Source of the DNA: a virus
Direction: 5' to 3' (one strand)
Virus record (IMG/VR): IMGVR_UViG_3300042380_000862
Span: 1 to 23,731 of that record
Length of the DNA stretch: 23,731 nucleotides
The notes under the pieces are model-generated. The model worked only from the letters and a program-made list of their open reading frames with translations, was not told where the DNA came from and did no database searches. How positions within the stretch are numbered: position 1 is the stretch's first letter; every line of letters starts with the position of its first letter. This document shows positions 6,315 through 23,731 of this stretch, one piece after another. The translations under genes were made by a program, and so were the position numbers.

Positions 6315-7391
6315 ATGAAAAACGCAGTAGCACAATACGATGAAGTTGTTTATATCAATGGAATCAAATTAAAAGGCGTTTCGGCTGTTGATGGTTCTTA
6401 TAATCATCAATTTAAACCTTTAAATGTTTTAAGCCAAGGCGTTGTCAAAAGCATATTAGCAGGAGTTCCTGAAGCTAATTTTTCAATTACAAGAAATGTA
6501 GGATTTATTGATGTTTTAAATCCATTTAATTCAACAAGTATTACAGCTTTTGGCGCAAACAGTGTCAGGGGGTCACTGAATTACGGAACTAAAGTGTTTG
6601 GTTTTGAAACTGGATATTTGTCTTCTTATTCTTATTCAGCGAGTTTAAACGATTTTCCTCAATCTAATGTTGGCATAAAAGTTTTTGGAGATATTGGAAG
6701 TGGATTGTATATAACTGATTCTAATATACAAAATCTAAATCAACCAGGTACATTAAATGCAACTGGCAATAATTTTGATAGCGCAGATTTTCCAATTTAT
6801 GCAGCAAATATACTTTTAAATTGTAGAGGCGCTTCAACTAATAGAGTTACAAGTTTTTCTATATCTGCTAATGTTCCTCATCATGAGGTTTACGCAGTTA
6901 ATCAAACTGTGCCATTGCAAGTTTCTCCTAAATATCCAATTGAAGTTTTAGCTAGTATTACATTGGAGGCTGATGATTATGAAGTAAAAAGAATGTCTGA
7001 CGCATTAAAAACTGGAATTGTAGATACATTTTCTATTGCTGTTTATGGAACAGTTTATAGAGATGTTGCTTTGAGGGGCAACGTTGTAGATTCAAATATT
7101 TTATCGTCTTCAGATTTATTAGCTGGTGATTCTACTCCACTGTTTCTATATACAGCTGGTAATAGAAATTTAAAACTATTTGATTTTAATTCTTCGGCTT
7201 CAACAACGCGACTGGTTTCTGAGCAGGTTTCGGCGACTGCGGAAGACGTTGTAACTGTTAAACTTGATTACATCACATATATAAATTCAACAGACTCCAA
7301 CAAGGTAAGTAATTTTAATCAAGCTATATATCAACTAGAAAAAGCAGTTTCTATTAATAGCGAATTTTTAATTAGTACTGACGTTGTTTAA
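6315..7391 (+). CDS. Tail structural protein, beta-rich (tube-like fold suspected)
   Basis: 358 aa. The ATG directly follows the tape measure TAA (TAAATG), so the two genes are probably co-translated. No signal peptide or membrane segment is seen. The protein is rich in alternating hydrophobic/polar strands with few helices, apart from a predicted helix near 330-345. Residues 11-60 (VVYINGIKLKGVS and after) and 178-225 (from VTSFSISANVP) look like two strands-plus-turn blocks, as in tail tube and distal tail proteins. The second block resembles residues 163-210 of the gene at 9374, suggesting a shared domain. Lambda has no gene here: its tube gene V lies upstream of H. This could be a tube-like cap/ring or baseplate component. 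The CDS is well supported by position and composition; the function is only inferred. Confidence 0.7.
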   Translation: MKNAVAQYDEVVYINGIKLKGVSAVDGSYNHQFKPLNVLSQGVVKSILAGVPEANFSITRNVGFIDVLNPFNSTSITAFGANSVRGSLNYGTKVFGFETGYLSSYSYSASLNDFPQSNVGIKVFGDIGSGLYITDSNIQNLNQPGTLNATGNNFDSADFPIYAANILLNCRGASTNRVTSFSISANVPHHEVYAVNQTVPLQVSPKYPIEVLASITLEADDYEVKRMSDALKTGIVDTFSIAVYGTVYRDVALRGNVVDSNILSSSDLLAGDSTPLFLYTAGNRNLKLFDFNSSASTTRLVSEQVSATAEDVVTVKLDYITYINSTDSNKVSNFNQAIYQLEKAVSINSEFLISTDVV

Positions 7392-7430
7392 TATAATTTT
7401 AATGTTTTAAAGTGTATAATATAATGTTAT
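7392..7430 (+). promoter_or_regulatory. AT-rich 39-base gap with a TATAAT hexamer (possible promoter)
   Basis: This is the only intergenic gap longer than five bases. It is about 90% A+T and contains TATAAT at 7415-7420, 10 bases before the ATG at 7431. No TTGACA-like -35 stands at the usual distance, and such hexamers are common by chance in DNA this AT-rich. A weak TATAA/TTATA inverted pair overlaps it. Could be an internal promoter for the fibre gene or just a spacer. Confidence 0.2.
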
Positions 7431-9371
7431 ATGGCAAATTCAATACCAGAATTGAATCAAGTTACTCAAGTTTCCAGCAATTCTTTGTTTTTACTTAGTT
7501 ATTCTGGCGCTCCTTCACAAATTGTTAGCTTTTCTGATTTATTAAAGAATTTTTCTTATGTCCAATCTTACTCTGGTAATGATCTTTTGCTGGGGGTTGG
7601 TAGTTCAAGCGTTCCTGCTATTCGGGTAACTGATGATAATAAATTTGTTGGTATTGCCAATTCTAATTCTTTTTCTCCGCTTTCTTTATTACATATTAGC
7701 GGTACAAGTGGGATCAATACTTATTTTACTGTTGAAAATCCGCCTAACAGTACTGGTAGCATAAGATTATACGACGCAACAGGATCTTGGTTCATTTCGA
7801 AAGATTCTTTTAATAATTTTTCGATAAGCGGAACAAAAGCTAATGATATTTATAAAAACAGTTTATTTATTAATGCGAGCGGTGATGTTCTGATTACAGA
7901 TGGTTCTCAATATGTTAATACAAATGTAGATACAGGAATAAATATTCAATTATTTGCGGCTAACAATATCAGACTAAGCGTTGATAATAATAGTTCAGCT
8001 AATGATTTTACTTTTACATCAAATGGATTAAATTCATCTAATGATTTATATTTAGGTTATAATTTACCTTCTAATTCTGTTAGTGGTTCTTTTTTTGGAT
8101 TAAGTGGTGCCGTGTTTGTTGATAAAGATGATGCTACTGTGCGAATTGGGGATACTAATAGAAATACAGATGCTCGGTTGATGGTTTCTAATTCTGCTGC
8201 CGCTTCTTCTCCTTATAAAACATTCTTAGTTGAAGACGCTGGTGTCCCAAACATATTTTTTAGAACTACTGGAAATTCAAATACAGCTTCTATTTTATAT
8301 AATCAATCTATTTCTGAATTGCATTTTGCTTTAAATAAATCTTCCGCCGCAACAGCTTCTACTGATGCAATAATTTTTGATCTAAGTAATAAGCAATTAG
8401 GCATTGGTGGTGTTTCGCCAGATTATTCGTTAGATGTAATTTCTTCGACTACTCTTTTATCTCGTTTTCAAACAAATCAAAATTCAGCTTTAACTCGCAT
8501 TCAGTCTAATTATCCGGGTGGAAGCGGAGCTATCGATTTTGTTGCTACTGCTTTCGGTTCAGGAAATTATAATTCATTTTTAATCGGTTATGATTTTGAT
8601 AAATCCGTATCAGGGCCATCAGGTCCAAGTGCGAGAAACGGTCAATTTTTCTTTCAAACTGGTGATTCAACAAATTCTTATTTAAGTTCTCGAAATATTG
8701 TAACGATTTCTGATGCTGGTGATATTGATGCTAAAGGATTATATACAAGTGATAGTAATTATTGTTATGGCAAATTTTTACAAATACATAGAGCTAACTG
8801 TGTTAGTGGAAATCCTATTTATTTAAATTTTGATAATATTGATTATGGATTTCAAACTTCAGGTAGCGTAGCTTATCATACGCTATTTCCTGCTAGTGGT
8901 AGAATTATAGGTGTTGATTTTATGTGTCAGTTGAATAGCGGATTAAATAATGCCACTGGATATTTAGTTTTTACAAAGTATCCTAATTTACAAGAAATTA
9001 ATGTTGGTGGTGTAAATTATATTAGCGGTAGCAATAATGCTGGTGTTGCTGGATTTTTGCCAGTTTGGAATCCTTATACAAGCAATTATCAAGTTCCAAG
9101 TTTTTCAAATCATGCGTATGTCACAGGCGCAATTACTGGTCAAGGTATTCTTAATTTAAAAGCCAGAATAGGCAACTCAACAGTTGGTAATCGTTTTGTT
9201 GGTATTACGGCTAATTTAAATTTCAATAGATATCAGTTTGGCAGTTGGGTTGCTTATGCTGTTTCGTCGGCGGGGATATTTGCTCCATTAACTGGAGCTA
9301 TAAATTTAACTACAATGGCGGAATATTTTTATACATCTGATACAGATTCTGCAACTGGAGTTTATATTTAA
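7431..9371 (+). CDS. Tail fibre-like protein with VGI/LxV beta-repeats
   Basis: 646 aa. The N-terminus (PELNQVTQVSSNSLFLLS at 6-23) resembles the virion-anchoring start common in phage fibre proteins. Three blocks follow the fibre pattern of a (V/L)xIG strand, a loop and an LxVxx strand: residues 72-90 (FVGIANSNS...LLHIS), 237-253 (VRIGDTNRN...LMVS) and 322-337 (QLGIGGVSP...LDVIS). The third is close to the VGIGTxxPxxxLxV unit seen in trimeric phage fibres and adhesins. The rest is Ser/Asn/Gly/Thr-rich with many short strands. The C-terminal 200 residues, which include the aromatic GFLPVWNPYTSNYQVPS, may be a receptor-binding head. No C-terminal chaperone domain such as S74 is evident. It likely forms a side or tip fibre; the ligand cannot be predicted. 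Confidence 0.72.
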   Translation: MANSIPELNQVTQVSSNSLFLLSYSGAPSQIVSFSDLLKNFSYVQSYSGNDLLLGVGSSSVPAIRVTDDNKFVGIANSNSFSPLSLLHISGTSGINTYFTVENPPNSTGSIRLYDATGSWFISKDSFNNFSISGTKANDIYKNSLFINASGDVLITDGSQYVNTNVDTGINIQLFAANNIRLSVDNNSSANDFTFTSNGLNSSNDLYLGYNLPSNSVSGSFFGLSGAVFVDKDDATVRIGDTNRNTDARLMVSNSAAASSPYKTFLVEDAGVPNIFFRTTGNSNTASILYNQSISELHFALNKSSAATASTDAIIFDLSNKQLGIGGVSPDYSLDVISSTTLLSRFQTNQNSALTRIQSNYPGGSGAIDFVATAFGSGNYNSFLIGYDFDKSVSGPSGPSARNGQFFFQTGDSTNSYLSSRNIVTISDAGDIDAKGLYTSDSNYCYGKFLQIHRANCVSGNPIYLNFDNIDYGFQTSGSVAYHTLFPASGRIIGVDFMCQLNSGLNNATGYLVFTKYPNLQEINVGGVNYISGSNNAGVAGFLPVWNPYTSNYQVPSFSNHAYVTGAITGQGILNLKARIGNSTVGNRFVGITANLNFNRYQFGSWVAYAVSSAGIFAPLTGAINLTTMAEYFYTSDTDSATGVYI

Positions 9372-9373
9372 TC

Positions 9374-10885
9374 ATGGGGCGTTTTTTAACATTTGAAACA
9401 ACAGCCTTAAAGTTAAACGATTCAGTTTTTCCATGTAATTCTGTTTCTTTTTCTTTAAATGCTAATACTGTTCCAGTTTTTGATATAAATGGTAATCTTT
9501 TGTATTATTCGCCAACTGCGCCTATACAGGGAAAATTTCAAACTCAATTTTATTTAACTGGCGCATTACCAAATTTTTTAAAATTAGAAAATCAATCTGA
9601 AGTTCCTGTCGATGTAAAATTTAATCAATTTTATATTCCTAGTGCTTTTTTAACAAATTTAAATTTTAGTGTTGATCCTTTTCAACCTATTTTAGTCAAT
9701 GTAGATTTTGTTTTTTATCATGGTTTATTAGCTTTGAATACGGATTTAAATGATCAATACACAAATTTTAGTAATTCATTAGCTACTTTAAATGGTTTAG
9801 GCAGTTATGTTATAACTGATAACAGAAGTACTTACATTGAAACTGCTGGTGATTTTTTAGTAACTAATTTTAATTATAGTTTTTCTGTTGAACGAGAACC
9901 GGTGATTAGGATTAAGCAGTCTGTTCCATCTCGCGTTGCTATTAAACAGATAAATGCTGAATTTAATGTTGGCGCGAATAATTTAGATGGATTGTTGCAA
10001 GTGCAGGGCAACGTAGGTCTTTTTTCTGGTGTTTTGCGTGATAATGAAAATTTATCTACGTCTACAAATTTTACTGTTTCTGGTATTATTGTCGATCAAA
10101 GTTATTCTATTTCAGAGGGGAATTATGGAGTATCTAATATTAAAATGATACAAAGTATTAATCCTAGAAGAAGCATTCTTACTATACCTTATGAAGTTGA
10201 AGATTACAATATTTCAATACCTGAATTAACTATTGATGATCCAGTATTGAAGCCAAGAATTGTTTTTGATCCAAATGTTTTATGTCCGATTAAACCTCCA
10301 GACATTTCGCAACCTCCTGCGACTGCTGATAATAATCTTTATGTTGATATTTACTTATTAAATACTGTTGGCGATTTATATAATCTCGATGATGGCACGC
10401 AAATTAAAAATTTATCAAGGGTCGATTCTATAGATTTTGAAACTCTATCAGTTACGCAAGCGTCACAAACCGCTTCTTGTGCTGTTACTGCTAATAAGCC
10501 AGCATTTGAAGCCGATAAGACTTCTTATATTACCGCAGGTAAAACAGATCTTCAACTTTATGGTTTATATCAGTCAGCGCCTTTTAAAAATATGGCGCAA
10601 TGCATAATAAATAATAAAGACACATATGTATTACTAAGCAAACAAACAACTTTTTTTACTCATTCTTTTCATTTTAACGGCTCGGATTATTTTCCTAACG
10701 CGGAAAATAATCAAAGAATAGAAAAATATTCAGATTTTATTTCCATTCTTCAACATAGAATTGGTGGTCTTGCAGATAATTTAGGTTGTGTTCAAAAAAA
10801 TATACCAAATATCGGAACTTCAAAAGTTCCTTATATAATTTTATATAAGATTGATAGTAGCAACGGTGATGGACTTTTTGTATGA
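9374..10885 (+). CDS. Tail structural protein of unknown function, beta-rich
   Basis: 503 aa, starting two bases after the previous stop. Its TGA stop overlaps the next start (ATGA). Two regions are visible. Residues 1-285 are strand-rich and carry a block at 163-210 (from VTNFNYSFSVE) that aligns with residues 178-225 of the 6315 gene (shared VT-F, V, Q-VP and -V- positions). Residues 286-320 are Pro-rich (KPRIVFDPN...PIKPPDISQPP), probably a linker. The C-terminal 180 residues are less repetitive, with Cys at 369, 410 and 472. No catalytic motif, signal peptide or membrane segment is seen. Its place among tail-tip genes argues for a virion component that partners with or anchors the neighbouring fibre. 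I do not recognise a named family. Confidence 0.68.
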   Translation: MGRFLTFETTALKLNDSVFPCNSVSFSLNANTVPVFDINGNLLYYSPTAPIQGKFQTQFYLTGALPNFLKLENQSEVPVDVKFNQFYIPSAFLTNLNFSVDPFQPILVNVDFVFYHGLLALNTDLNDQYTNFSNSLATLNGLGSYVITDNRSTYIETAGDFLVTNFNYSFSVEREPVIRIKQSVPSRVAIKQINAEFNVGANNLDGLLQVQGNVGLFSGVLRDNENLSTSTNFTVSGIIVDQSYSISEGNYGVSNIKMIQSINPRRSILTIPYEVEDYNISIPELTIDDPVLKPRIVFDPNVLCPIKPPDISQPPATADNNLYVDIYLLNTVGDLYNLDDGTQIKNLSRVDSIDFETLSVTQASQTASCAVTANKPAFEADKTSYITAGKTDLQLYGLYQSAPFKNMAQCIINNKDTYVLLSKQTTFFTHSFHFNGSDYFPNAENNQRIEKYSDFISILQHRIGGLADNLGCVQKNIPNIGTSKVPYIILYKIDSSNGDGLFV

Positions 10886-13704
10886 AAGCTATTAACGATT
10901 ATAGAATTTTAATGCCAAATATCCCGTATTATGAAACGGGAATGCAAATTAATCAATTTGATATTGTTTATTATACTGGAATCACGCCGGGTGCATATTC
11001 TGTTCCTAATTTTTCAGAAAATGTTTCGGGGCCTTTTGCCACGGGATATTATTACGCTACTGGAAGATTAAATTCAGGAAGTAATTTTTTCTATTTGCGA
11101 CCTGATTCTGTTACGGGTCCTAGCGGTCCAAATGTTTGGACGCAAAAGTATTTTTTTGTTCCTACTTATGGTTCAACGATTAATTTTAAAGCAACATATT
11201 ACGAAAATATTTTTCAAGATTATTATCGAGTTATTTTAGGAAAAAGCGCAAACATAATACATTGCGACGCTTCTTTGCAGTTTAAAGGTATTTCAGATAA
11301 CGAAGCCAAATGTTTGAATCATTTTTATCAAAGCAGTTTTATTGCTAATCCTTTATCGGATGGCCAAGGCCATAAACCGATAAACATGTATTTATTTCCT
11401 CCTCATACGAAAAGTCAACCTTTTTATTTGAAGAGTATAGATAATAATTTTGAAAACATTAATTTTAACACAGTTTCTTTAAACGTCGAAAGCCCATTTA
11501 TTTCTTCGACAAGCTGGAAAGAAAAATTAATACCTTTTACATCAGAGCAAGTATACGGTTCTTCCAAAACATATAATCAACATAGTTATGTTTTTCTTGA
11601 TAACTTGTCTGCATCGTCAAATGGATTTTATTATTTTACAGGATCACAATCTGTTACTAATGTAGCGCCGCCTAATAGTCCTTGGATTAAGAATAAATTT
11701 TATTTTTCACCAGATCTTGTTCAACAATTAAATTTTGATTCTACTATTTATAAAAATGATTTAGGGAATTTTTATTTATATCAGGATGAAGGTTTAAACC
11801 CTAACTTTTTTGTTTTCGATTTATCATTTAATAATAGAAGCGATAAAGAAGCTAAAGCTTTATTGCATTTTTTAGAAAATCATAATGGTCTTGATGTGTT
11901 TAGTTATGACATGCATACATTTTTTACTGGCTCAAGAAATTTCTTTTGCCCCGAATGGAGTCATACTTATAATTATTTAGACAATAATACTATTTCTGCT
12001 AAATTTATTGAGTTTAAATTTTCTTCGGACAGACAAGTTAATTTTAATTCGGAATTAAAACCAACAGGTTTTGATTTTGGATTTTTGCCACAAGGGTTTA
12101 CTAAAATTAAAGAATATGAAGTAGGTAATAATAGCAGAAGATATACTATTACTTACACAATTGGTGATAAAAAAGAAGATCCAGCTTATAGCAGCGCGTT
12201 CTTTAGTTTCAATCCTAATAATAAAAGTATCAATGTAGAACCAGGTAAAACAGGTTATTTTGATGTTATTTTTTCTGTTCCGACAAATTTAAACGAATCA
12301 GCGATCAATAAAGATTTGAGGGGAGTTTTTGATATATATCAAGAAAGTGAAAATGTGGGGGCTATTGGCCCAATATTGCAAATCCAATATACCGGTCAAG
12401 TCGAAGAAGCTGATAAATTAGCTCCAAGTCCATTTTTATCAGGCGTTCAAAATTGTGTTGCTTCAACAATTTATGATAAAGACGCTGATCGTTTAGGCTT
12501 AAAAGTGCGTTGGACTTTGCCGGGTTCTGGTTATTATTATACAGATTTTTCAGGTAGAATTTCTTCGACTAGTGGTTTTGCGGTTTTTACAGGCGCAAAT
12601 GTTGATGTTGAATTAGATAATACAACATTTTTATACAATATAGGAACACCTAATCAAACAACTTATTCTTTAAATTTTTATGGTTTGACTTTTAATTCGC
12701 CTTATTATGTTTCAATTAGTGGCGTAAACGTTGATTATGATAATGCAGGTGGTCAATTTGTTTATGCTTCTGGTGTTTCAAATGTTGATGTATGGCCAAA
12801 TCCTTCTTTTACTTATAGCGCTGTCAATTCCGGGTTAACAACTGGTGTTTTATCTACATTAGGTATACTTCCGCCAAGCATTACTCTTAATAAACCTATT
12901 CAGGTTTATAATATAAATGGATTAAGTACTGGTTATTTTGATTTATATAAGTTTGTAGTTGAAAATTTACCTTTTGGAAATCGTTTTGCATATTATTCTG
13001 GCATAGTAATTAATTTTAATAACGTACAAATTGGACCGCCGAATGCTGTTTTTTATGACGATGTTTATAAAACGGGATCTTTTATTGTTACTGGCGATTA
13101 TTCTGCTATTGTAAGTGGCGTATCGTTGAATTTCTTTAATAATTCATCTGTTTATGGAAAAGGTGGAAATGTTGCTGATTATCTAATTAATAATTCCGCA
13201 GATAATGCTGGTAAAAACGCTATTTATATTAACTGTTCTGGTTTAATTAATATTGCGGTTGATGACACGTCTATTATTGCTGGCGGTGGTGGTGCTGGTG
13301 ATAATATTTTATTTAATGATATTGTTAATGCTCAAAACAGTAAATATGCTACCTTGAAAGATAGTTTTAATCTTTCTCCAACATATAAATATAATGGTCT
13401 TGCCGGTCCTAATTATAGTTTGACATATGATTATCAAAAAGTTCAACAGCTGTATTCAGATTTTAATAACACTTCTGTTTCTTTGAATAATAATTTTTGC
13501 ACAACTAAAGGTGCGGGAATTTTGTACGACTTTTTTAAACATAACGTTGTTGTTTATGGAGGTGCCGGGGCTCCGTTTGGAAATGGAAATGGAAGCTCTT
13601 TTGCAAACAAATATAGGGTAGATTCATTAAATGCGGAAAAAGATCATCCTTCTCGACAGCAATCATTGTATGGTTTAATTAATTTAGAAAAAGATTTATT
13701 ATAA
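10882..13704 (+). CDS. Minor tail protein, gpM-like, internally duplicated, with Ig/Fn3-like and glycine-rich C-terminal regions
   Basis: 940 aa against roughly 110 for lambda gpM; it overlaps the previous stop by four bases. Two gpM-like blocks lie at about 95-205 and 280-390. The second shows the family pattern clearly: an AKALLHFLENHNGLDVFSY segment, then a Cys-Pro-Glu-Trp, then a final ISAKFIEFKF strand. Each block is preceded by a short aromatic module (about 20-95 and 222-280) resembling CBM5/12, and the junctions W86...INF and W268...LNF align residue by residue. Residues 420-507 look Ig-like and 515-640 Fn3-like. At 700-905 there are glycine-rich strands, including AGGGGAG at 800-806 and YGGAGAPFG, as in phage adhesin tips. 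The protein probably joins the tape measure/tube to the tip and displays surface-binding domains. The gpM homology is fairly secure; the accessory domain names are inference from pattern. Confidence 0.75.
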   Translation: MKAINDYRILMPNIPYYETGMQINQFDIVYYTGITPGAYSVPNFSENVSGPFATGYYYATGRLNSGSNFFYLRPDSVTGPSGPNVWTQKYFFVPTYGSTINFKATYYENIFQDYYRVILGKSANIIHCDASLQFKGISDNEAKCLNHFYQSSFIANPLSDGQGHKPINMYLFPPHTKSQPFYLKSIDNNFENINFNTVSLNVESPFISSTSWKEKLIPFTSEQVYGSSKTYNQHSYVFLDNLSASSNGFYYFTGSQSVTNVAPPNSPWIKNKFYFSPDLVQQLNFDSTIYKNDLGNFYLYQDEGLNPNFFVFDLSFNNRSDKEAKALLHFLENHNGLDVFSYDMHTFFTGSRNFFCPEWSHTYNYLDNNTISAKFIEFKFSSDRQVNFNSELKPTGFDFGFLPQGFTKIKEYEVGNNSRRYTITYTIGDKKEDPAYSSAFFSFNPNNKSINVEPGKTGYFDVIFSVPTNLNESAINKDLRGVFDIYQESENVGAIGPILQIQYTGQVEEADKLAPSPFLSGVQNCVASTIYDKDADRLGLKVRWTLPGSGYYYTDFSGRISSTSGFAVFTGANVDVELDNTTFLYNIGTPNQTTYSLNFYGLTFNSPYYVSISGVNVDYDNAGGQFVYASGVSNVDVWPNPSFTYSAVNSGLTTGVLSTLGILPPSITLNKPIQVYNINGLSTGYFDLYKFVVENLPFGNRFAYYSGIVINFNNVQIGPPNAVFYDDVYKTGSFIVTGDYSAIVSGVSLNFFNNSSVYGKGGNVADYLINNSADNAGKNAIYINCSGLINIAVDDTSIIAGGGGAGDNILFNDIVNAQNSKYATLKDSFNLSPTYKYNGLAGPNYSLTYDYQKVQQLYSDFNNTSVSLNNNFCTTKGAGILYDFFKHNVVVYGGAGAPFGNGNGSSFANKYRVDSLNAEKDHPSRQQSLYGLINLEKDLL

Positions 13705-15360: not shown

Positions 15361-16419
15361 ATGGCTGACGCAATTACAGCACAAGCTTTATTGGATTTAG
15401 ATCCAGATTCATTTGTTGATTTATTTGAAATTTATATCAGTGAGTCTGTTGGTGTGTTGCGATTTCATGCGGGAAAAAACTTTAACAATTTTATAATTTA
15501 TAGAGGTAATAAATATATTGCTGTTCCGATTGAGTATAGTGGTTTTGAGTTTTCTGCTGATGGCAAACAAAGCCGACCAACCATAAGAATAGCAAATATT
15601 AATGGTGTTATTACAGATGTAATTAAAAATAAAAATAATTTAGTCAATTCAAATTTAAAAAGATTAAAAGTATTTGTTAAAAATTTAGATGATGCGAATT
15701 TTTCAAATTCTGTAAATCCATTTTTTGGTTATCGCAAAAAACGATATGGTCCAGATAATTTTGGTAAAACATTTTTTGAAGAAACATACGTAGTTAATAG
15801 AAAAGTTCAAGAAAATAAATATACAATTGAATTTGAACTATCTAGTCCAATTGATTACGAAAATCAATCTTTGCCCAATAGAAAGATTTCAGATAATTTA
15901 TGCTCTTGGTCATTTCGTGGTTGTGGATGTAATTATGGCAAAATACCTTGGCGCACAATCACTAATGAAGATCAATTCGTTAAGGTCAACAATGTTAATA
16001 TTTCGGCGCAAACTGTTTTTGGATCAAGTAATTTAAATGTAGGGCTTCCATATGCTGATGAAAATGATAGATTGTTCTACGCTCAAAATGGTTATAATTT
16101 AAAACAAATTACATTTAAAAACTCTTGGTCTTCTACAGGTACTTATGATCCAGGCGATTTTGTTGTTTATTCTGATTCTATAAATTATAACTTTTTTGGA
16201 GATACGTATCAGTTTTCAGAAGATAACATTTCTTTATCTACCTATGTATGTGTGGCAACAGGAAATTCTGGAAAAGATCCAAGATACAATAATGAATATT
16301 GGGTTAAAGATAATTGTTCAAAAAGTATATTTGGTTGTTCTTTAAGATGGCTTAATCATAAAGATGGATTACCATATGGAGGATTTCCTGGAACTAGACC
16401 CTACAATTATCAAACATAA
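15361..16419 (+). CDS. L: Minor tail protein L (gpL-like), Fe-S cysteines, with inserted CBM-like module
   Basis: 352 aa against about 230 in lambda. gpL is a tail-tip component. The N-terminal 170 residues show the gpL beta domain (VDLFEIYIS...LRFHAG, IAVPIEYSGFEFSADG, RPTIRIANINGVIT). The C-terminal part has the cysteine pattern that binds an iron-sulfur cluster in this family: C181 and C188/C190 (LCSWSFRGCGC), then C319 and C326 (NCSKSIFGCSLRW), and a closing LPYGGFPGTRP. Between the two cysteine pairs, residues 252-318 insert a Trp/Tyr-rich segment with TYDPGDFVVY and a final EYW, like CBM5/12 carbohydrate-binding modules. This insertion accounts for much of the extra length. The last 56 bases overlap the gpK-like gene in another frame. 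Confidence 0.85.
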   Translation: MADAITAQALLDLDPDSFVDLFEIYISESVGVLRFHAGKNFNNFIIYRGNKYIAVPIEYSGFEFSADGKQSRPTIRIANINGVITDVIKNKNNLVNSNLKRLKVFVKNLDDANFSNSVNPFFGYRKKRYGPDNFGKTFFEETYVVNRKVQENKYTIEFELSSPIDYENQSLPNRKISDNLCSWSFRGCGCNYGKIPWRTITNEDQFVKVNNVNISAQTVFGSSNLNVGLPYADENDRLFYAQNGYNLKQITFKNSWSSTGTYDPGDFVVYSDSINYNFFGDTYQFSEDNISLSTYVCVATGNSGKDPRYNNEYWVKDNCSKSIFGCSLRWLNHKDGLPYGGFPGTRPYNYQT

Positions 16420-16771
16420 AAATCTTTTATTGAGCATAAAAAAATTTTTGCTAAGTAATTATCCGTTTGAATCTGGTGGTTTGATAGACGAAAATTTAAA
16501 TATACTGTATTACCCGTCTTTGCAAAACGATTGTCATTCTTATTATCCTCCTCCTCAGTTTTTTGTTTCTGTTGTAAAAAAGAAAATTCTTTTTTCTTTT
16601 CATAGTCATTTGCATATCTTGGATCCTTCTGAAGAAGATATATTTTTTTTAAAAAATTATAATATTCCTGTTATAATATATAGTTTAAATTATGATTGTT
16701 TTTTAAGTGTAAATATTAAAAATGAAGGAAGTCGTATTACATGGAATACTCAGAAAATTAACTTGTCCTAG
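16364..16771 (+). CDS. K: gpK-like tail-tip assembly protein, JAMM domain only
   Basis: 135 aa. Lambda gpK has an N-terminal JAMM (Mov34/MPN-type) metalloprotease domain and a C-terminal NlpC/P60 peptidoglycan hydrolase; here only the first is present. Seen: E36 in NYPFESGGL, and H80-x-H82 with S89 and D92 in FSFHSHLHILDPSEED, matching the zinc-binding JAMM pattern except that six rather than seven residues separate the second His from Ser. Hydrophobic strands surround it as expected. ATG 16364 and ATG 16376 are both possible starts. The helix IIKHKNLLLSIKKFLL needed before E36 favours one of them and implies overlap with gpL by 44-56 bases. The C-terminus overlaps the first gpI by 50 bases. 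The stop is TAG. Located between L and I exactly as in lambda. Confidence 0.8.
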   Translation: MDYHMEDFLELDPTIIKHKNLLLSIKKFLLSNYPFESGGLIDENLNILYYPSLQNDCHSYYPPPQFFVSVVKKKILFSFHSHLHILDPSEEDIFFLKNYNIPVIIYSLNYDCFLSVNIKNEGSRITWNTQKINLS

Positions 16772-17330
16772 AATTCAGGTTAAAGTGAATTCTTTTGATG
16801 AATTGATTTCATGTTTATTAAGCAATTTTGAAAAGCTTAATTCTAAATTATATGTGTTTTTAAAAAAAGCTCATGGTCTAATTATTTTGGCTGATGATAA
16901 AATAATCGCTAATCTTAAAACTTTAAACGCTAATTTCCATCTTTTCAAAAAGCTCGAACTTATTCCTGTGTCTCGTTTTTGTATTGCTGCCACCGCCACA
17001 ATAGCTTTTACGGCAATTAAGGTTAATGCTCTTCTTGCTTTTGCTATTAATACTATTATTTTCGCAGTTATTTCAATAGGTATTAGTCTTTTAATTTCTA
17101 AATTGTTAAGTCCTAAACAACCTAATCAAGTAAAAACTTCTTCGTATATTTTCTCTAGTAAAGAGAATTTAGCTCAACGAAATGCTTCTATTCCATTGTC
17201 TTATGGTCGATTGCGTTTGAATTCTTACATTGTAAGTTCTATTTTGTTGAATTTTGATTTAACTTCTGATTTTGATATTTCATCTTTATCTTCATCGGCT
17301 TCTTCTGGTTTATTAAGCGCAAATATTTAA
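16722..17330 (+). CDS. I: Tail assembly protein I (gpI-like), first copy
   Basis: 202 aa, similar to lambda gpI. gpI acts in tail-tip assembly with K, L and J. The start MKEVVLHGILRKL is the conserved beginning of the family, which fixes the start despite the 50-base overlap with the gpK-like gene. Residues 1-80 would form the ubiquitin-like beta-grasp part. Hydrophobic segments lie at about 86-106 and 107-128 (two membrane-like helices, typical of gpI). Residues 140-202 hold the conserved SSYIFSS...IPLSYGRLRLNS block. The C-terminus FDLTSDFD...SASSGLLSANI is almost repeated in the next gene. Identity to that paralogue is highest after residue 119 and low in the beta-grasp part. Confidence 0.85.
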   Translation: MKEVVLHGILRKLTCPRIQVKVNSFDELISCLLSNFEKLNSKLYVFLKKAHGLIILADDKIIANLKTLNANFHLFKKLELIPVSRFCIAATATIAFTAIKVNALLAFAINTIIFAVISIGISLLISKLLSPKQPNQVKTSSYIFSSKENLAQRNASIPLSYGRLRLNSYIVSSILLNFDLTSDFDISSLSSSASSGLLSANI

Positions 17331-17335
17331 AATTA

Positions 17336-17950
17336 ATGAAAACTATTATTTTTCATGGTTTGTTGAAGAAGTTGTTTTGTAAACAAATTAATTTGCGCGT
17401 TTTTAAATTTAAAGATATTTTTTCTTCACTAGCCGCAAACTACAATGATTATGAAAAAAAACTAAATAAAATTAGAAAAGAGTGTTTGGGTTTTGTTGTT
17501 TTAGTTGATGGTGATTTATTTTATAAAGATTTTGATGAAATAGACTGTGAAATTGAAAACGCAAAATGTATTGAATTGATTCCTTGTTGTAAGTTCAAAT
17601 TTTTTGGAAGCTTAGTTGCTGTTTTAATTTCAATAGGTTTAAGTACTTTGTTAGCAAATATAGTTTCTTTCTTACTTACCGCATTGATTTTATTTGGTAT
17701 CAGTTTTTTGATTTCTAAATTATTTGGTCCAAAAGGTCCTGGAAATCCAGTAAAAACGGCTTCTTATATATTTTCTAATAAAGATAATATAGCAGCAAGA
17801 AATACTCCTATATCTTTGAATTATGGTCGTTTGCGTCTTGGTTCAAACGTAACAAATGCTTTTATATTAAATTTTGATTTAACCTCTGATTTTGATTTGA
17901 ATTCAATATCTCAAAATGCTTCATCAGGTTTAAGTTCTGCTTTTATTTAA
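17336..17950 (+). CDS. I: Tail assembly protein I (gpI-like), second tandem copy
   Basis: 204 aa, five bases after the first copy. It starts MKTIIFHGLLKKLFC, parallel to the first copy's start. It has the same architecture: beta-grasp-like part at 1-85, hydrophobic segments at about 89-130, then SYIFSNKDNIAARNTPIS, NYGRLRLGS and LNFDLTSDFDLNS. The two copies share the ISxLISKLxxPK linker and the SYIFSxKxNxAxRN and YGRLRL blocks but differ elsewhere, so the duplication is old. A Cys-rich patch (CKxxEL...CCKF at about 71-86) is not shared with copy one. Both keep all conserved blocks, so neither looks like a pseudogene. They might form a heteromer or serve different steps of tip assembly. Confidence 0.85.
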   Translation: MKTIIFHGLLKKLFCKQINLRVFKFKDIFSSLAANYNDYEKKLNKIRKECLGFVVLVDGDLFYKDFDEIDCEIENAKCIELIPCCKFKFFGSLVAVLISIGLSTLLANIVSFLLTALILFGISFLISKLFGPKGPGNPVKTASYIFSNKDNIAARNTPISLNYGRLRLGSNVTNAFILNFDLTSDFDLNSISQNASSGLSSAFI

Positions 17951-17953
17951 TTT

Positions 17954-20900
17954 ATGACTTCTTCTGATTCTTTTGGTTCTAGAATGTTTAGCTATTTGCA
18001 ATCGAGGAGTGATAGTTTTGCTCCTTTTGTTAAGCAAGGTGCTGCTAATAATGTTTTAGAATCAAGTTCTAAATATTTTGTTCAAGATCTAATTGGAGAG
18101 GGTCCTCTTGCTGGGTTAGTCGGTCCAGATGGAAATGAATTAGTTTTATTTGATAATGGTCAAAACAATATAGAAATTTTAAAAGGAATTTATCTAAATG
18201 ATTATCCTATTGTTAATGATTTAACTAATTCTTATAATTATAATAGAGTTAACATTTATTCGAGATCTGGTACAGAATTTCAAAGCTTTTTGCCAGCTGG
18301 TGGTGTAGGTGGATTTTCTTTTGCTAATCCCGGTGTAGCTTATAGTTTCGATAAAACAATTTATGGAATAGCTAATTCTGTTTCTCCAAATCATGTAAAA
18401 GGCTCAAATCATTCTTCAAGTATTTTAATTTTTAAAAACTTTCAATTAGATAAAAGTTTTAATTTGAAAGATGGGGATTTTACAGCTTTAAAAGGGGCTT
18501 TTAATCCTAAAAACTTTCAAGAATCCTTTGGCGTTTATCATGAAATTAAAGAGCAAATCACAGATTATTTATTTCTTTCTCTTAAATTAAATGGCTTGTA
18601 TATCACTAGTGATGACGGATCGACACTGCCTAACACTGCGACGTTTGGTATTGAAATTGGTTATAAATTAAAACCTTCTGATAGCGTTTTTATTTTTCAT
18701 AAAGTATATGGCATTTCAACAAGCCCTTATGCTTTTGATTTATTTTTTGATGTTTCAGATTTTGATTTTTCTTTGCAGCCTTTTATTAGAGTATATAATT
18801 TTTCACCAAAACAAAATCCTACAGATTTTAAAAATGCCAGATCATTAGCCGTAACTAATATTACCGAAGTTACTTCTCTTAAATTTAAGTATCCAAATAG
18901 CTGTTATTTTTTAAGTATTTTTGACGGTAGAGGATTTCCAAATCCACCTAATAGAAGTTTTGATTTGAAACTATTAAAGATTAAAGTTCCTGAAAATTAC
19001 GATGCAGAAGGAAAATCTTATGATGGATTTTGGAATGGAGAATTTGATGCGGTATTAAGATGGACAGACAATCCTGCTTGGATTTTATATGATATAATTA
19101 CTAATAATCGATATGGTGTTGGTAAATTTGGTCTTCAGCAAAATCTTGTTGATAAATGGAATTTATATAAAATTGCTAAGTATTGCGATGAAATGGTTCC
19201 AACAAATGCTGTATCGAGGTTTCCAGTTCAGCCGATTTATGGTTTATCAGAAAATAAAATATCTATTTACACGCCCGGTCAGAAGTTGACATCTTTTTTT
19301 AAAATTTTTGATTATATCGATTTAGTTAATTTAAAATTTCAAGAGATTGATGAAAACGGTGAGCAGGTTGATGTTTATCGATCTTATAAAGCTATTATTT
19401 ACGATCTTGATTTTTGCTGTAATGATGAAGGCGTTATCATCACTTTAATTAATCCTTTTGGATTGCATAAAATATTGTCTCTTTTTCCAAACATAAGAAA
19501 TTATATTTATGAAAAATATAATAATCCAAAAGAAATAAATGTTTATAAAAGAGTTTTTGCGGACATTTTAGACTTAGTTGGTACTTCAGATCCAGCTTAC
19601 GCCGATTTCAATAATTATCTTCTTGGTCAACAAATTTTTTCTAATGATGATATTGTAAATTATGTTCAAGATAGTGGTGTTGCCGCCAGTGAATATCAAG
19701 GGTTTTCTCCATTGGTTGAACCAAGGTTTCGCTGTAATTTGTCAATTGCGAATGAAACAGATGTTATTAATTTAGTTAATAATATCTCTTCTGTTTTTAA
19801 GGGCATGGTATATTGGTCAAATAATTTAATTAATTTTGATAGCGATAGACCTAAATTGCCGATTTATTTCTTTAATAATTCTAATGTTAAAGATGGTATT
19901 TTTAATTATACAGGGTCTTCAAAAGATACAAGATACACCGTTGCAAAAGTTGTTTATTCTGATGAAACAGATTCTTTTAAAGATAAAACAGTTTATGTTG
20001 AAGACAAGTTTAATATTAGGCGATACGGTTATATTGAAAAAGAAATTATTGGTTTAGGTATCACTTCTAAATCACAAGCTAAAAGAATAGGGGAATGGTT
20101 TTTAATAACAAATCAAGTTGAAGAGGAATTGGTTTCATTTACGGCGGGTCCAGAGGCTTTATTGCTTGCTCCAGGTAATGTGATATCGATAACGGATCAG
20201 TTAAAATTGTCAGGAAGAAGAGGTGGAAGAGTTGTTAGTGTCACTGATGCTGGAATCGTAACTCTTGATGATAAATATGATTTCATTAAAGCTGGAGATG
20301 TTTTATCTTTTATTATTCCAAAAGCTGCAAAGACTGTTAATGATTTAGCTTTAGAAAGTCAAAAGACAAACGAAGTAACAGATAAAAGTATAAATCAACT
20401 TCAACCAACATTTATTTATAGATTTGAAGTATTTGATGTTTCTTTGGAAGGTAATTTTAGAACTCAAGTAACATTGAAACTAGATAGCGTTGAAACACAG
20501 CAGAATTTATACTCCATTTTCCCATCTGCTATGTGGGTTTATGAAAAAGACTCTGCCAATACTTCGATAGCTTTCTCGAAGCAATATAGAATCATATCAA
20601 TTAAAGAAAAAAGCCAAGTTGAGTTTGATTTTACAGCAGCTGAATATCAAAAGACTAAATTTGCTTATTTTGAAAACAATAAAAATATAATTGTTAACAA
20701 CTTATATTCCGATTCTTCCTCTAATACAAATTCAATTATTCCTATAGATATTTTAGGATATCAAAAGGGCAACGGATCAAGAGAGCTATCTGATTATATC
20801 AATATTGATATTAAAGTTTTTAACATTGGTGAGCAATTTGATTATATCATTCCTTCTTATGAATATTCTGATGATATTTATAGCAATCTTATTTCGGTTG

Positions 20901-21133
20901 TAGAGATAAAAAATTCAAATCTTTTCCAACTTGGTAAAACTTATAATTTAAATTGTAAGGGTTTTATTGTCGAATATGTCTTAAATTCAAAAAAAGTTTC
21001 TTATGTTTGGAGATTAGGTGATAAAAATTCTGTTTTTATCGCTGTTCCTAAAGTTGAATCTAACGTGTCTTTTGAAAATTTAAGAGTGTATATGATAGGA
21101 GACAACGACGTATTCATAAATCCAGTAACATAA
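17954..21133 (+). CDS. J: Central tail tip protein J (gpJ-like, host specificity)
   Basis: 1059 aa (lambda gpJ 1132). gpJ closes the tail tip and, in lambda, carries the receptor-binding C-terminus. Family hallmarks in order: QDLIGEGPLAGLVG (44-57), GIYLNDYPIVN (78-88), KVPENYDAEGKSYDGFW (344-360) and LRWTDNPAWILYD then RYGVGKFG (368-393), which is the most diagnostic block; next DKWNLYKIAKYCDEMV (400-415), CNLSIANETDVINLVN (594-609) and GYIEKEIIGLGITSKSQAKR (692-711), followed by EELVSFTAGP...PGNVISITD. Residues 100-340 correspond to the insertion domain region. The C-terminus ends soon after a beta-rich part (about 815-1059), without an obvious long coiled stalk or receptor domain; the next gene may supply it. 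It starts three bases after the second gpI. Confidence 0.92.
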   Translation: MTSSDSFGSRMFSYLQSRSDSFAPFVKQGAANNVLESSSKYFVQDLIGEGPLAGLVGPDGNELVLFDNGQNNIEILKGIYLNDYPIVNDLTNSYNYNRVNIYSRSGTEFQSFLPAGGVGGFSFANPGVAYSFDKTIYGIANSVSPNHVKGSNHSSSILIFKNFQLDKSFNLKDGDFTALKGAFNPKNFQESFGVYHEIKEQITDYLFLSLKLNGLYITSDDGSTLPNTATFGIEIGYKLKPSDSVFIFHKVYGISTSPYAFDLFFDVSDFDFSLQPFIRVYNFSPKQNPTDFKNARSLAVTNITEVTSLKFKYPNSCYFLSIFDGRGFPNPPNRSFDLKLLKIKVPENYDAEGKSYDGFWNGEFDAVLRWTDNPAWILYDIITNNRYGVGKFGLQQNLVDKWNLYKIAKYCDEMVPTNAVSRFPVQPIYGLSENKISIYTPGQKLTSFFKIFDYIDLVNLKFQEIDENGEQVDVYRSYKAIIYDLDFCCNDEGVIITLINPFGLHKILSLFPNIRNYIYEKYNNPKEINVYKRVFADILDLVGTSDPAYADFNNYLLGQQIFSNDDIVNYVQDSGVAASEYQGFSPLVEPRFRCNLSIANETDVINLVNNISSVFKGMVYWSNNLINFDSDRPKLPIYFFNNSNVKDGIFNYTGSSKDTRYTVAKVVYSDETDSFKDKTVYVEDKFNIRRYGYIEKEIIGLGITSKSQAKRIGEWFLITNQVEEELVSFTAGPEALLLAPGNVISITDQLKLSGRRGGRVVSVTDAGIVTLDDKYDFIKAGDVLSFIIPKAAKTVNDLALESQKTNEVTDKSINQLQPTFIYRFEVFDVSLEGNFRTQVTLKLDSVETQQNLYSIFPSAMWVYEKDSANTSIAFSKQYRIISIKEKSQVEFDFTAAEYQKTKFAYFENNKNIIVNNLYSDSSSNTNSIIPIDILGYQKGNGSRELSDYINIDIKVFNIGEQFDYIIPSYEYSDDIYSNLISVVEIKNSNLFQLGKTYNLNCKGFIVEYVLNSKKVSYVWRLGDKNSVFIAVPKVESNVSFENLRVYMIGDNDVFINPVT

Positions 21134-21134
21134 A

Positions 21135-23731
21135 ATGTTTCAAGATACATCATCTAGTAATTCTTTAAATATTGCGGCTAATGGCGCTTATAAATTTGCC
21201 AATCTTGCATGTAGTATAGAATCTTCAATTGTAACCAATCCTCAAGATTATGGTTTCTCGATTGATACTCCCGCTTCTTTGATTAGGGTAAGTTCTGATC
21301 AGTTCTCGATAGGTTGGGCAGTTCTTAATCCAAATACAAATAGAACCGCTGACTTGAGTGATGGTGTTTTTTCTTATTTTACAATAGATTTATTGGATAA
21401 AAATAATAAAGTAGTTTCTACTTTAGATTCTTCTCTTCGTGATTCAACTTATTTAATAAATGTTTCTGGTTTATTTAATTTATCTAAGACTCTTTATGGT
21501 GACGAAAATTATTTGCGCGATTGCAGAATATTAATAACCTCTTATAATATATCAGGTCAAACAGCAAAAGCTGTTTTTATATTAAACTTCTTAATACCTT
21601 CTTTTACTGCTGTTGATGTAAATTTAAACAATAAAATTGTTTGTTCTTACTCTTTGAGTAATGTTCAGTATGCTAAAAATATTATTTTAGAAAAAAGTAA
21701 AACAAATTCTTTTGAATATATTGATGAGCAGATTTTTTCTTCAATTGGTTCTTCTATCTTTTATGATCCGCAAAACTATTATGATAAAAATTATTATCGC
21801 CTCTCTGTAATAGATTATTATAATACGGGATCTTCTTATTCAATTGGGCAGATAAAACCTAATACTTTAGACTTATTAACTTACGATCAAAAACCGCAAA
21901 ATATAACAGGCGGAGTAGTTGTTAATTACGATTCAGTTGCTAAAAATTATGAACGCTATTTGTTTTTAAAATGGGCGATTAATTCTTCAAATGTTCCTTT
22001 AGATTATGAAATTCATATTGGCCCAAGTGGCGCAACTGGTTCAAATGAAATTCACAGAATATATAACTATTCAACACCTGTTGTAGAAAATATAAATTTT
22101 ATAGGCTTTGAAACAGGTGTTAATGCTTTTGTAAATTCAATTAGTGGTGTTAATCCTTACTATTCAGGATCTGGATATGCTCCTGTTTTTTCCATTTCAG
22201 ATAATGGCAGTGGAATAAGATGGCAAAAACATACAGTTTATACAGATGCTAAAGGATCTTTTCCTTCTGGAGTTTTTACTGGAGAAATTCCTAATTTATT
22301 ATACTATATAAATTTTGACACAGGGTCTATTCAATCTGATAGATTATTTTTAAATTATTATTTTGATACCGGCTCTGGTTCTTTTTTGTTTAGTACGTCT
22401 GGTAATATTTTATCTGGCACATATGATTCTGGTTATTACGGTGGCTTTTCTACGGGTGACGTAAGCGGTTTAAATTATTTAAAAAATTATACTGGCGTTT
22501 TAATTGCTGAAAAAGTTAATTTAAATTATCCTTCTGGATCAATTGTTATTGCAGGTACGGAGCCGCATTTTTATATTCCTATTTCATATTCTGATAATTA
22601 TGAAGTTAAGGTTAGGGGAATAATTTCTGATCAATCGTATACAAATTTCTCTGATATAGTTTATTTTTCAAAAAGCGCAATCGATTATGCTACAACAGGC
22701 GTTAAGAAATTAAATTTTTTAGAAGGAACTGGTGTTAGTGGTTATTTGCCTGTTTTTAATAGCGAAAATACTTTAACTACTGGAACTTTATATTATAGTG
22801 GCACAAATAATTTAGTTTTTACTGAACTACCAACGACAACAACTACTGCGACTGAATATTTAGTTATAGAAAATAATGTTGTAAAAAAACAAATTGGAAG
22901 CGGCGGAAGCGGTTCTGGTGGCACCTCTGGTAGCAGCGGCACCAGCGGTTCTTCTGGAACTAGTGGAACGAGCGGATCTAGCGGAACTAGTGGTACCAGT
23001 GGATCTAGCGGAACTAGTGGTACCAGCGGTTCTTCTGGAACTAGTGGTACCAGTGGATCTAGCGGAACTAGTGGTACCAGCGGTTCTTCTGGAACTAGTG
23101 GTACCAGTGGATCTAGCGGAACTAGTGGTACCAGCGGTTCTTCTGGAACTAGTGGTACCAGCGGTTCTTCTGGAACTAGTGGTACCAGCGGTTCTTCTGG
23201 AACTAGTGGTACCAGTGGATCTAGCGGAACTAGTGGTACCAGCGGTTCTTCTGGAACTAGTGGTACCAGTGGATCTAGCGGAACTAGTGGTACCAGCGGT
23301 TCTTCTGGAACTAGTGGTACAAGTGGATCTAGCGGAACTAGTGGTACCAGCGGTTCTTCTGGAACTAGTGGTACCAGTGGATCTAGCGGAACTAGTGGCA
23401 CCAGCGGTTCTTCTGGAACTAGTGGAACGAGCGGATCTAGCGGAACTAGTGGTACCAGCGGATCTAGCGGAACTAGTGGTACCAGCGGTTCTTCTGGAAC
23501 TAGTGGTACCAGCGGTTCTTCTGGAACTAGTGGTACAAGTGGTTCTTCTGGAACTAGCGGTACAAGTGGTTCTTCTGGAACTAGCGGTACAAGTGGTTCT
23601 TCTGGCACTAGGGGCACAAGCGGTTCTTCTGGAACTAGCGGTACAAGTGGTTCTTCTGGAACTAGCGGTACAAGTGGTTCTTCTGGAACTAGCGGTACAA
23701 GTGGTTCTTCTGGAACTAGCGGTACAAGTGG
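21135..23731 (+). CDS. Fibre-like protein with Ig/Fn3-like domains and a long (GTSGTSGSS)n repeat; 3'-partial
   Basis: Open from ATG 21135 (MFQDTSSSNSLNIAANG), one base after the gpJ stop, to the window edge, with no stop; at least 865 aa. Residues 1-250 are strand-rich: an Ig-like block (about 55-155) and an Fn3-like block (about 165-240, ending YYRLSVIDYYNTGS), resembling modules that follow the tip domains in gpJ proteins. Residues 250-575 are Gly/Ser/Tyr-rich beta sequence. Then ELPTTTTTATEYLVIENN (positions 566-583) leads into a Gly/Ser/Thr tract from residue 588 (nt 22896) to the edge. This tract is a regular 9-residue repeat with Gly at every third position. The gene is probably the host-contact tip fibre, acting with gpJ. 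Function beyond the repeat is not visible because the C-terminus lies outside the window. Confidence 0.82.
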   Translation, partial: MFQDTSSSNSLNIAANGAYKFANLACSIESSIVTNPQDYGFSIDTPASLIRVSSDQFSIGWAVLNPNTNRTADLSDGVFSYFTIDLLDKNNKVVSTLDSSLRDSTYLINVSGLFNLSKTLYGDENYLRDCRILITSYNISGQTAKAVFILNFLIPSFTAVDVNLNNKIVCSYSLSNVQYAKNIILEKSKTNSFEYIDEQIFSSIGSSIFYDPQNYYDKNYYRLSVIDYYNTGSSYSIGQIKPNTLDLLTYDQKPQNITGGVVVNYDSVAKNYERYLFLKWAINSSNVPLDYEIHIGPSGATGSNEIHRIYNYSTPVVENINFIGFETGVNAFVNSISGVNPYYSGSGYAPVFSISDNGSGIRWQKHTVYTDAKGSFPSGVFTGEIPNLLYYINFDTGSIQSDRLFLNYYFDTGSGSFLFSTSGNILSGTYDSGYYGGFSTGDVSGLNYLKNYTGVLIAEKVNLNYPSGSIVIAGTEPHFYIPISYSDNYEVKVRGIISDQSYTNFSDIVYFSKSAIDYATTGVKKLNFLEGTGVSGYLPVFNSENTLTTGTLYYSGTNNLVFTELPTTTTTATEYLVIENNVVKKQIGSGGSGSGGTSGSSGTSGSSGTSGTSGSSGTSGTSGSSGTSGTSGSSGTSGTSGSSGTSGTSGSSGTSGTSGSSGTSGTSGSSGTSGTSGSSGTSGTSGSSGTSGTSGSSGTSGTSGSSGTSGTSGSSGTSGTSGSSGTSGTSGSSGTSGTSGSSGTSGTSGSSGTSGTSGSSGTSGTSGSSGTSGTSGSSGTSGTSGSSGTSGTSGSSGTSGTSGSSGTSGTSGSSGTSGTSGSSGTRGTSGSSGTSGTSGSSGTSGTSGSSGTSGTSGSSGTSGTS
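22896..23731 (+). repeat. 27-bp in-frame tandem repeat encoding GTSGTSGSS, running off the window
   Basis: A Gly-Ser lead-in at 22896-22919 is followed by irregular triplets, then strict 27-base units from 22983: 27 complete units plus a partial one. Each unit reads as three Gly-X-Y triplets (Thr-Ser, Thr-Ser, Ser-Ser), a collagen-like spacing but without proline. Two DNA forms of the third triplet, GGATCTAGC and GGTTCTTCT, alternate in the 5' part. From about 23523 the units change to GGTACAAGT with GGTTCTTCT. No unit changes length, so the frame is kept. The repeat is about 52% G+C against about 30% around it. One Ser to Arg change occurs at 23610-23612. Confidence 0.93.

Follow-up and report, generated by a model that had tools for sequence, protein, structure and literature searches.

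Lambda-type tail modules carry a single gene I, and the module described here raises the question of why a phage would keep two diverged copies of it in tandem, and whether the two proteins share one role or divide it between them. The module lies in a 23.7-kb virus record, the whole of which (23,731 nucleotides) we refer to as the window. Read from 5' to 3', it encodes a 550-aa protein, gpL, a short gpK, two gpI-like proteins that we call I1 and I2, and gpJ; the genes of this module and their parts lie on the + strand. We refer to phages with both I1 and I2 as paired and to those with one gene I as single-I phages.

The gpL-like hub protein (15361..16419, 352 aa) matches Pfam PF05100 (Phage_tail_L, E 2.7e-34) and PHROG 18 (E 3e-50), is present as a single copy with a Cys-rich CSWSxRGCGCNYG motif, and is 65-75% identical across the paired clade. 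It extends approximately 150 aa beyond the Phage_tail_L match at its C-terminus, where additional conserved cysteines are found. A pattern search of bacterial genomes with gpL gave no match. The gpK-like protein (16364..16771, 135 aa) consists of a JAMM/JAB-type domain only, with the motif ESGG...FHSHLHxLxPSExD when aligned over 19 relatives; it lacks the NlpC/P60 part, nor did any other window protein submitted to the Pfam scan give an NlpC/P60 match. The K protein of a sister phage matches Prok-JAB weakly (E 0.0068, below the cut-off). This JAMM-only form of gpK, of about 135 aa and without NlpC/P60, is common to paired and single-I phages, and its JAMM spacing is shorter than that of the more distant L103.

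The gene for gpK overlaps that for I1 by 50 nt. The genes for I1 (16722..17330, 202 aa; PHROG 32 E 2.1e-12) and I2 (17336..17950, 204 aa; PHROG 32 E 2.7e-16) are 5 nt apart in the window and overlap by 4 nt in most relatives, an arrangement that is consistent with coupled translation. They are followed by the gene for a gpJ-like hub/central protein (17954..21133, 1059 aa; PHROG 31 E 4e-106; Pfam Phage-tail_3 E 5e-18), which is present as a single copy and, by analogy with lambda, is the expected docking partner of I1 and I2. Elsewhere in the window, a 940-aa protein (10882-13704) combines a gpM-like minor tail domain at residues 273-377 with a match to a Gp38-type tail-fibre adhesin at residues 747-812, which suggests that it may bind the receptor from a distal position in the tail. 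Between this gpM-like protein and a 2103-aa ORF that is possibly the tape measure, there are three large ORFs (358, 646, and 503 aa; 6315-10885), none of which matched a Pfam or PHROG family. In lambda, there is no gene between H and M. The gene 3' of J (21135-23731), which is open at the contig end, matches tail-fibre families and has collagen-like repeats near the contig end.

I1 and I2 can be aligned with one another over their full lengths at 43% identity and with 63% positives (E 3e-52), and the PHROG 32 'tail assembly protein' match covers residues 1-173 of I1 and 1-177 of I2. In the L-K-I-J order of the module, both genes stand where gene I is expected, after K and before J. Sequence, fold, and gene position place I1 and I2 in the gpI family as full-length members, and a preliminary description of this locus as a tandem duplication of gene I with both copies intact is borne out. 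That description had also contrasted conserved C-terminal blocks with strongly differing beta-grasp parts, and the regional identities in the window agree with it: the copies are least alike in the first hydrophobic helix (22%), followed by the beta-grasp domain (30%) and the second helix (43%), and most alike in the C-terminal arm (61%) and the tail (70%). Thirty-two alignment columns are identically conserved in I1, I2, and single I proteins, and at the threshold used only three columns are clean copy-specific switches. A further proposal, that only the second copy has a Cys cluster, is correct for the window, where I2 has cysteines at positions 15, 50, 71, 78, 84, and 85 and I1 has them at 15, 31, and 87, but it does not describe the family. 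Cys15 and Cys31 are common to I1, I2, and single-copy I families, while Cys50, 71, 78, and 85 each occur in less than half of the I2 proteins, if in any. Of the lineage-specific residues, the exception is Cys84, which is typical of I2 (82% weighted, compared to 0% in other I families). A functional Cys cluster or metal site in I2 is ruled out, since the residues are not conserved.

AlphaFold2 models of each monomer consist of a confident N-terminal domain, two helices (approximately residues 85-130), and an arm without resolved structure. In I1, the beta-grasp domain (16722..16973, aa 1-84) has pLDDT values of 74-90 over most of its length and is followed by a hydrophobic helix pair (16974..17111, aa 85-130; modelled helices 85-98 and 103-129, hydropathy peak 107-125) and by the C-terminal arm (17112..17258, aa 131-179), which aligns to the gpJ-docking strands of lambda gpI (8iyk/9e7m chains). 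The I2 protein has the same layout: a beta-grasp domain (17336..17587, aa 1-84; pLDDT 82-91), a first hydrophobic helix region that is hypervariable when orthologues are compared (17588..17659, aa 85-108), a second hydrophobic helix (17660..17725, aa 109-130; modelled helix 104-130, hydropathy peak 109-127), and a C-terminal arm (17726..17878, aa 131-181). The hydropathy peaks of the helix regions of the two proteins reach 2.4-2.5. When the N-terminal domains were compared to known structures with VIA-align, MoaD, Urm1, and SAMP proteins headed the lists, with Z scores of 7-9 for I1 (best 9.2) and 6-8 for I2 (best 8.2). A ubiquitin-like domain has previously been assigned to tail protein I (PMC1779556), and the present comparison agrees with it; plain Foldseek E-values for the models were weak. 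Solved gpI chains were absent from the PDB fold-comparison lists of these models, an absence that carries no weight because the C-terminal arm was unmodelled. Profile comparisons relate I1 to the lambda gpI of 8iyk (E 2e-4), while the I2 profile gives E 0.44 to lambda gpI and E 0.004 to 25vf_9, and I2 alone matches 25vf_9 with E 1.5e-4. The arms of I1 and I2 align with lambda gpI residues 173-205. A conserved Gly ending the beta-grasp domain, proposed as a JAB cleavage point, is typical of the family but not defining (PMC1779556). It is absent at this place from I1 (IPVSRFC) and from single I (LPVQVFS), and I2 has a Gly only at position 91.

Protein searches of IMG/VR revealed the I1-I2 pair in all 33 related contigs that reach both positions. 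With the window, there are 34 distinct paired contigs, many of which are near-copies of one another; the contig boundary truncates the first copy in two of them, and three further contigs end too early to show whether they are paired. I1 and I2 orthologues each best match their own kind. The same pair in 33 other contigs rules out an assembly artefact. We used gpL as an alternative query, since it is neutral with respect to the copy number of I, and this search of IMG/VR also identified the nearest sister group, 20 contigs (L082-L084, L086-L102) with the same L-K-I-J order and a single I. The gap between I and J in these phages is at most about 30 nt, which leaves no room for a hidden second copy, and their I protein scores closer to the I1 profile than to that of I2. 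More distant relatives have one I as well, and in two of them, L106 (6471-11122) and L112 (5987-7936), I and the N-terminus of J form an in-frame fusion. A survey of relatives had been proposed for the paired state, and its outcome is that every closer relative reaching both positions is paired and the sister group is not. The view that lambda-type modules have one copy is likewise supported among cultured phages, where a lambda gpI query found 1,512 places in 1,510 records; with two further gpI queries, the totals were 1,445 places (1,441 records) and 1,421 places (1,418 records). No report of a duplicated gene I was found in the open-licence papers searched.

The age of the duplication was addressed with a maximum-likelihood tree of a thinned set that included 14 I1 and 16 I2 sequences. 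I1 and I2 together form one clade (96/96). Within it, the I2 clade has support of 100/99 and a long stem of 0.66, making I2 the faster-diverging copy, while the ancestral-like I1 has a clade support of 86/70 and a stem of 0.12. In the simplest and best-supported history, gene I was thus duplicated once, at the root of the paired lineage, and most of the later change would have fallen on I2; a phylogeny had been suggested as a means of dating the event, and this is where the tree places it. The duplication could instead predate the split from the single-I sisters, which would then have lost one copy. AU tests do not reject the grouping of either I1 or I2 with single I genes (p 0.35 and 0.30), and the support for the I1 clade is moderate. 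However, the best tree joins I1 and I2, and one gain is simpler because all outer relatives are single, so we regard the older date as distinctly unlikely; it concerns the date only and is compatible with any mechanism discussed below. The preliminary description had named single-I relatives that are otherwise identical as the sign of a recent accidental copy, and no such relatives were found: the gpL proteins of the single-I sisters are only 56-62% identical to that of the window, and all closer relatives are paired. A recent accidental copy is also ruled out by the 43% identity between the copies, by the presence of orthologous pairs throughout the clade, and by purifying selection. The duplication is old and fixed.

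Pairwise dN/dS values for orthologues of close phages are 0.06-0.36 for I1 and 0.12-0.27 for I2, indicating that both copies are under purifying selection; since selection keeps both, paired phages seem to need both. The C-terminal arms are strongly constrained in both proteins, with dN/dS values of 0.14 for I1 and 0.10 for I2. The clearest functional difference between the copies lies in the first hydrophobic helix. Across the same nine phages, which are mutually related so that the counts are not independent, helix 1 has a mean identity of 93% in I1 compared to 51% in I2, whereas the other regions are similar in the two proteins (83 versus 79% in the beta-grasp domain and 82 versus 86% in the arm). 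The corresponding dN/dS values for helix 1 are 0.07 for I1 and 0.47 for I2, the latter being below 1, so that it could reflect relaxed constraint as well as diversification. Between the window and its nearest distinct relative, L005, the nucleotide identity of I2 helix 1 drops to 59% at the worst stretch of a gapped alignment, with a gradual fall to 80-86% in its flanks and mostly 90-100% in the DNA otherwise. It had been suggested that divergence with both copies intact points to different jobs, and two copies that are long retained, diverged, and each under selection imply as much.

In addition to these differences, the two genes share a stretch near their ends that is more alike than expected (the I1 end, NFDLTSDFD...ASSGL, at 17247..17321, and the I2 end at 17867..17941; permutation p 0.0025 for amino acids and 0.0005 for nucleotides). 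The homogenised columns are 185-213 in the protein and a longer run, 122-210, in the DNA; 13 phages were tested, and the corrected protein p is approximately 0.03. Excess likeness between the copies is also observed at about residues 32-70 of I1 and I2 in L029, where it is borderline, and in L030, where it is stronger at the DNA level. These patterns point to occasional gene conversion between I1 and I2 within one phage, and the homogenised C-terminal tails in the window suggest a shared constraint on the two proteins, although the stretch could also be a chance conversion without functional meaning.

In lambda, gpI is present in the virion, as demonstrated by mass spectrometry and cryo-EM (PMC10721106), where it forms a trimeric plug of the tube that is docked on gpJ by beta-augmentation and whose two hydrophobic helices are thought to enter the outer membrane (PMC10721106, PMC11101478). 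By analogy with lambda, I1 and I2 may have plug, docking, and membrane roles of this kind. It had been proposed that the two copies bind different K, L, or J partners, and the data do not support this: K, L, and J are single genes, gpJ of paired phages has no paired-specific insertion of more than 3 residues relative to single-I phages, and the J-docking arm is among the regions in which the two proteins are most alike. Heteromer formation, which had been suggested as the other possibility, is plausible. The one paired-specific insert found in gpJ is 3 residues long, and a new docking element in gpJ of paired phages was rejected as a candidate. The conserved and constrained arm, a gpJ without such an insertion, and the homogenised ends favour the placement of both proteins on the same type of gpJ site. 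Our preferred reading of these results is a mixed plug in which I1 is the constant and I2 the variable component, with the co-assembly of the two proteins itself being what we infer. To a mixed tail-tip plug, in which I1 and I2 would each bind an equivalent site on gpJ, we give about even weight, and the modelling of lambda gpI with threefold symmetry argues against it, because a mixed trimer would break that symmetry. In such a plug, the arms of I1 and I2 would, as in lambda, run between the hub domains of the gpJ trimer and be held there by beta-augmentation, and the plug would be either a heterotrimer or two kinds of subunit in one assembly. I1 would retain the ancestral, strongly conserved hydrophobic segment, and I2 would supply the fast-changing helix 1, which would be freed toward the host membrane upon opening of the tail. 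More tentatively, and with some doubt, we suggest that the plug might be an obligate heteromeric plug or membrane channel with I1 as its constant part and I2 contributing a helix that enters the membrane, diversifies rapidly, and is tuned to the host envelope. We know of no siphophage in which such a division of labour has been described.

The main rival to a mixed plug is that I1 alone is the plug of the virion and that I2 is a dedicated assembly factor missing from the mature tail, such as a chaperone bound to J or to the C-terminus of the tape measure, or an occupant of the site until I1 loads. The roles could also be reversed, but I2 is the likelier of the two in the assembly role. The much faster divergence of I2 after the duplication and the poor conservation of its helix 1 would fit such a factor. 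However, the I2 arm is as constrained as that of I1, I2 retains hydrophobic helices for which an assembly-only factor has no obvious need, and the lambda protein is found in the virion; we therefore consider this explanation unlikely. Quite improbable, in our estimation, is a pair of separate homotrimers, with I1 as the lumen plug and I2, at a different height in the gpJ cone, as a second layer or second membrane segment. The completeness and self-consistency of each copy would be expected from it, as would the location of the greatest difference between them in the hydrophobic helices (helix 1), but gpJ offers no paired-specific insertion of more than 3 residues as a second docking site. Finally, the copies could be redundant or held by chance for dosage, without any division of labour. 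The core columns shared by I1, I2, and single I proteins and the local homogenisation between the copies are what redundancy would produce; the extent of their divergence under purifying selection, the absence of loss in 34 of 34 contigs, the asymmetric rates, and the opposite conservation of helix 1 make it very improbable. We thus retain the mixed plug, constant in I1 and variable in I2, as the preferred reading.

The opening of the siphophage tail tip and the crossing of the outer membrane are only partly known, and gpI is a candidate for both the plug and the membrane segment. A split of roles between two proteins separates the constant parts (the I1 helices and the docking arm) from the changeable helix 1 of I2, and the paired lineage thus offers a natural experiment for telling the parts of gpI in contact with gpJ from those that may contact the host.

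Compared to lambda gpI (PDB 8iyk, 8xcg; PHROG 32; TAPI), I1 and I2 have the same beta-grasp N-terminal domain, hydrophobic helix region, and C-terminal arm, which aligns to the gpJ-docking strands, and their genes likewise lie between K and J with an overlap of K and I. Lambda has one gpI, whereas the window has two diverged paralogues, and the linker between helix and arm, which is the plug loop of lambda, falls short of the lambda length by approximately 6-7 residues, as judged by eye, in I1, I2, and the single-I sisters alike. The single-I sisters (e.g. L082, L093, L094, and L102) have the same order of a 550-aa protein, L, a JAMM-only K, I, and J, but only one I. In phage T5, the baseplate hub protein pb3 provides a trimeric plug that closes the tube where gpI sits in lambda (PMC10721106); this likeness is that of the published description, and the T5 plug is an insertion in the hub protein rather than a separate, duplicated gene. 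The MoaD, Urm1, and SAMP proteins share the fold of the N-terminal domains of I1 and I2, but I1 and I2 lack the C-terminal Gly-Gly and continue from this domain into hydrophobic helices and an arm. The departure of this lineage from the rest of the gpI family is one of copy number and of division of roles, and the pair itself is solid as a genomic fact.
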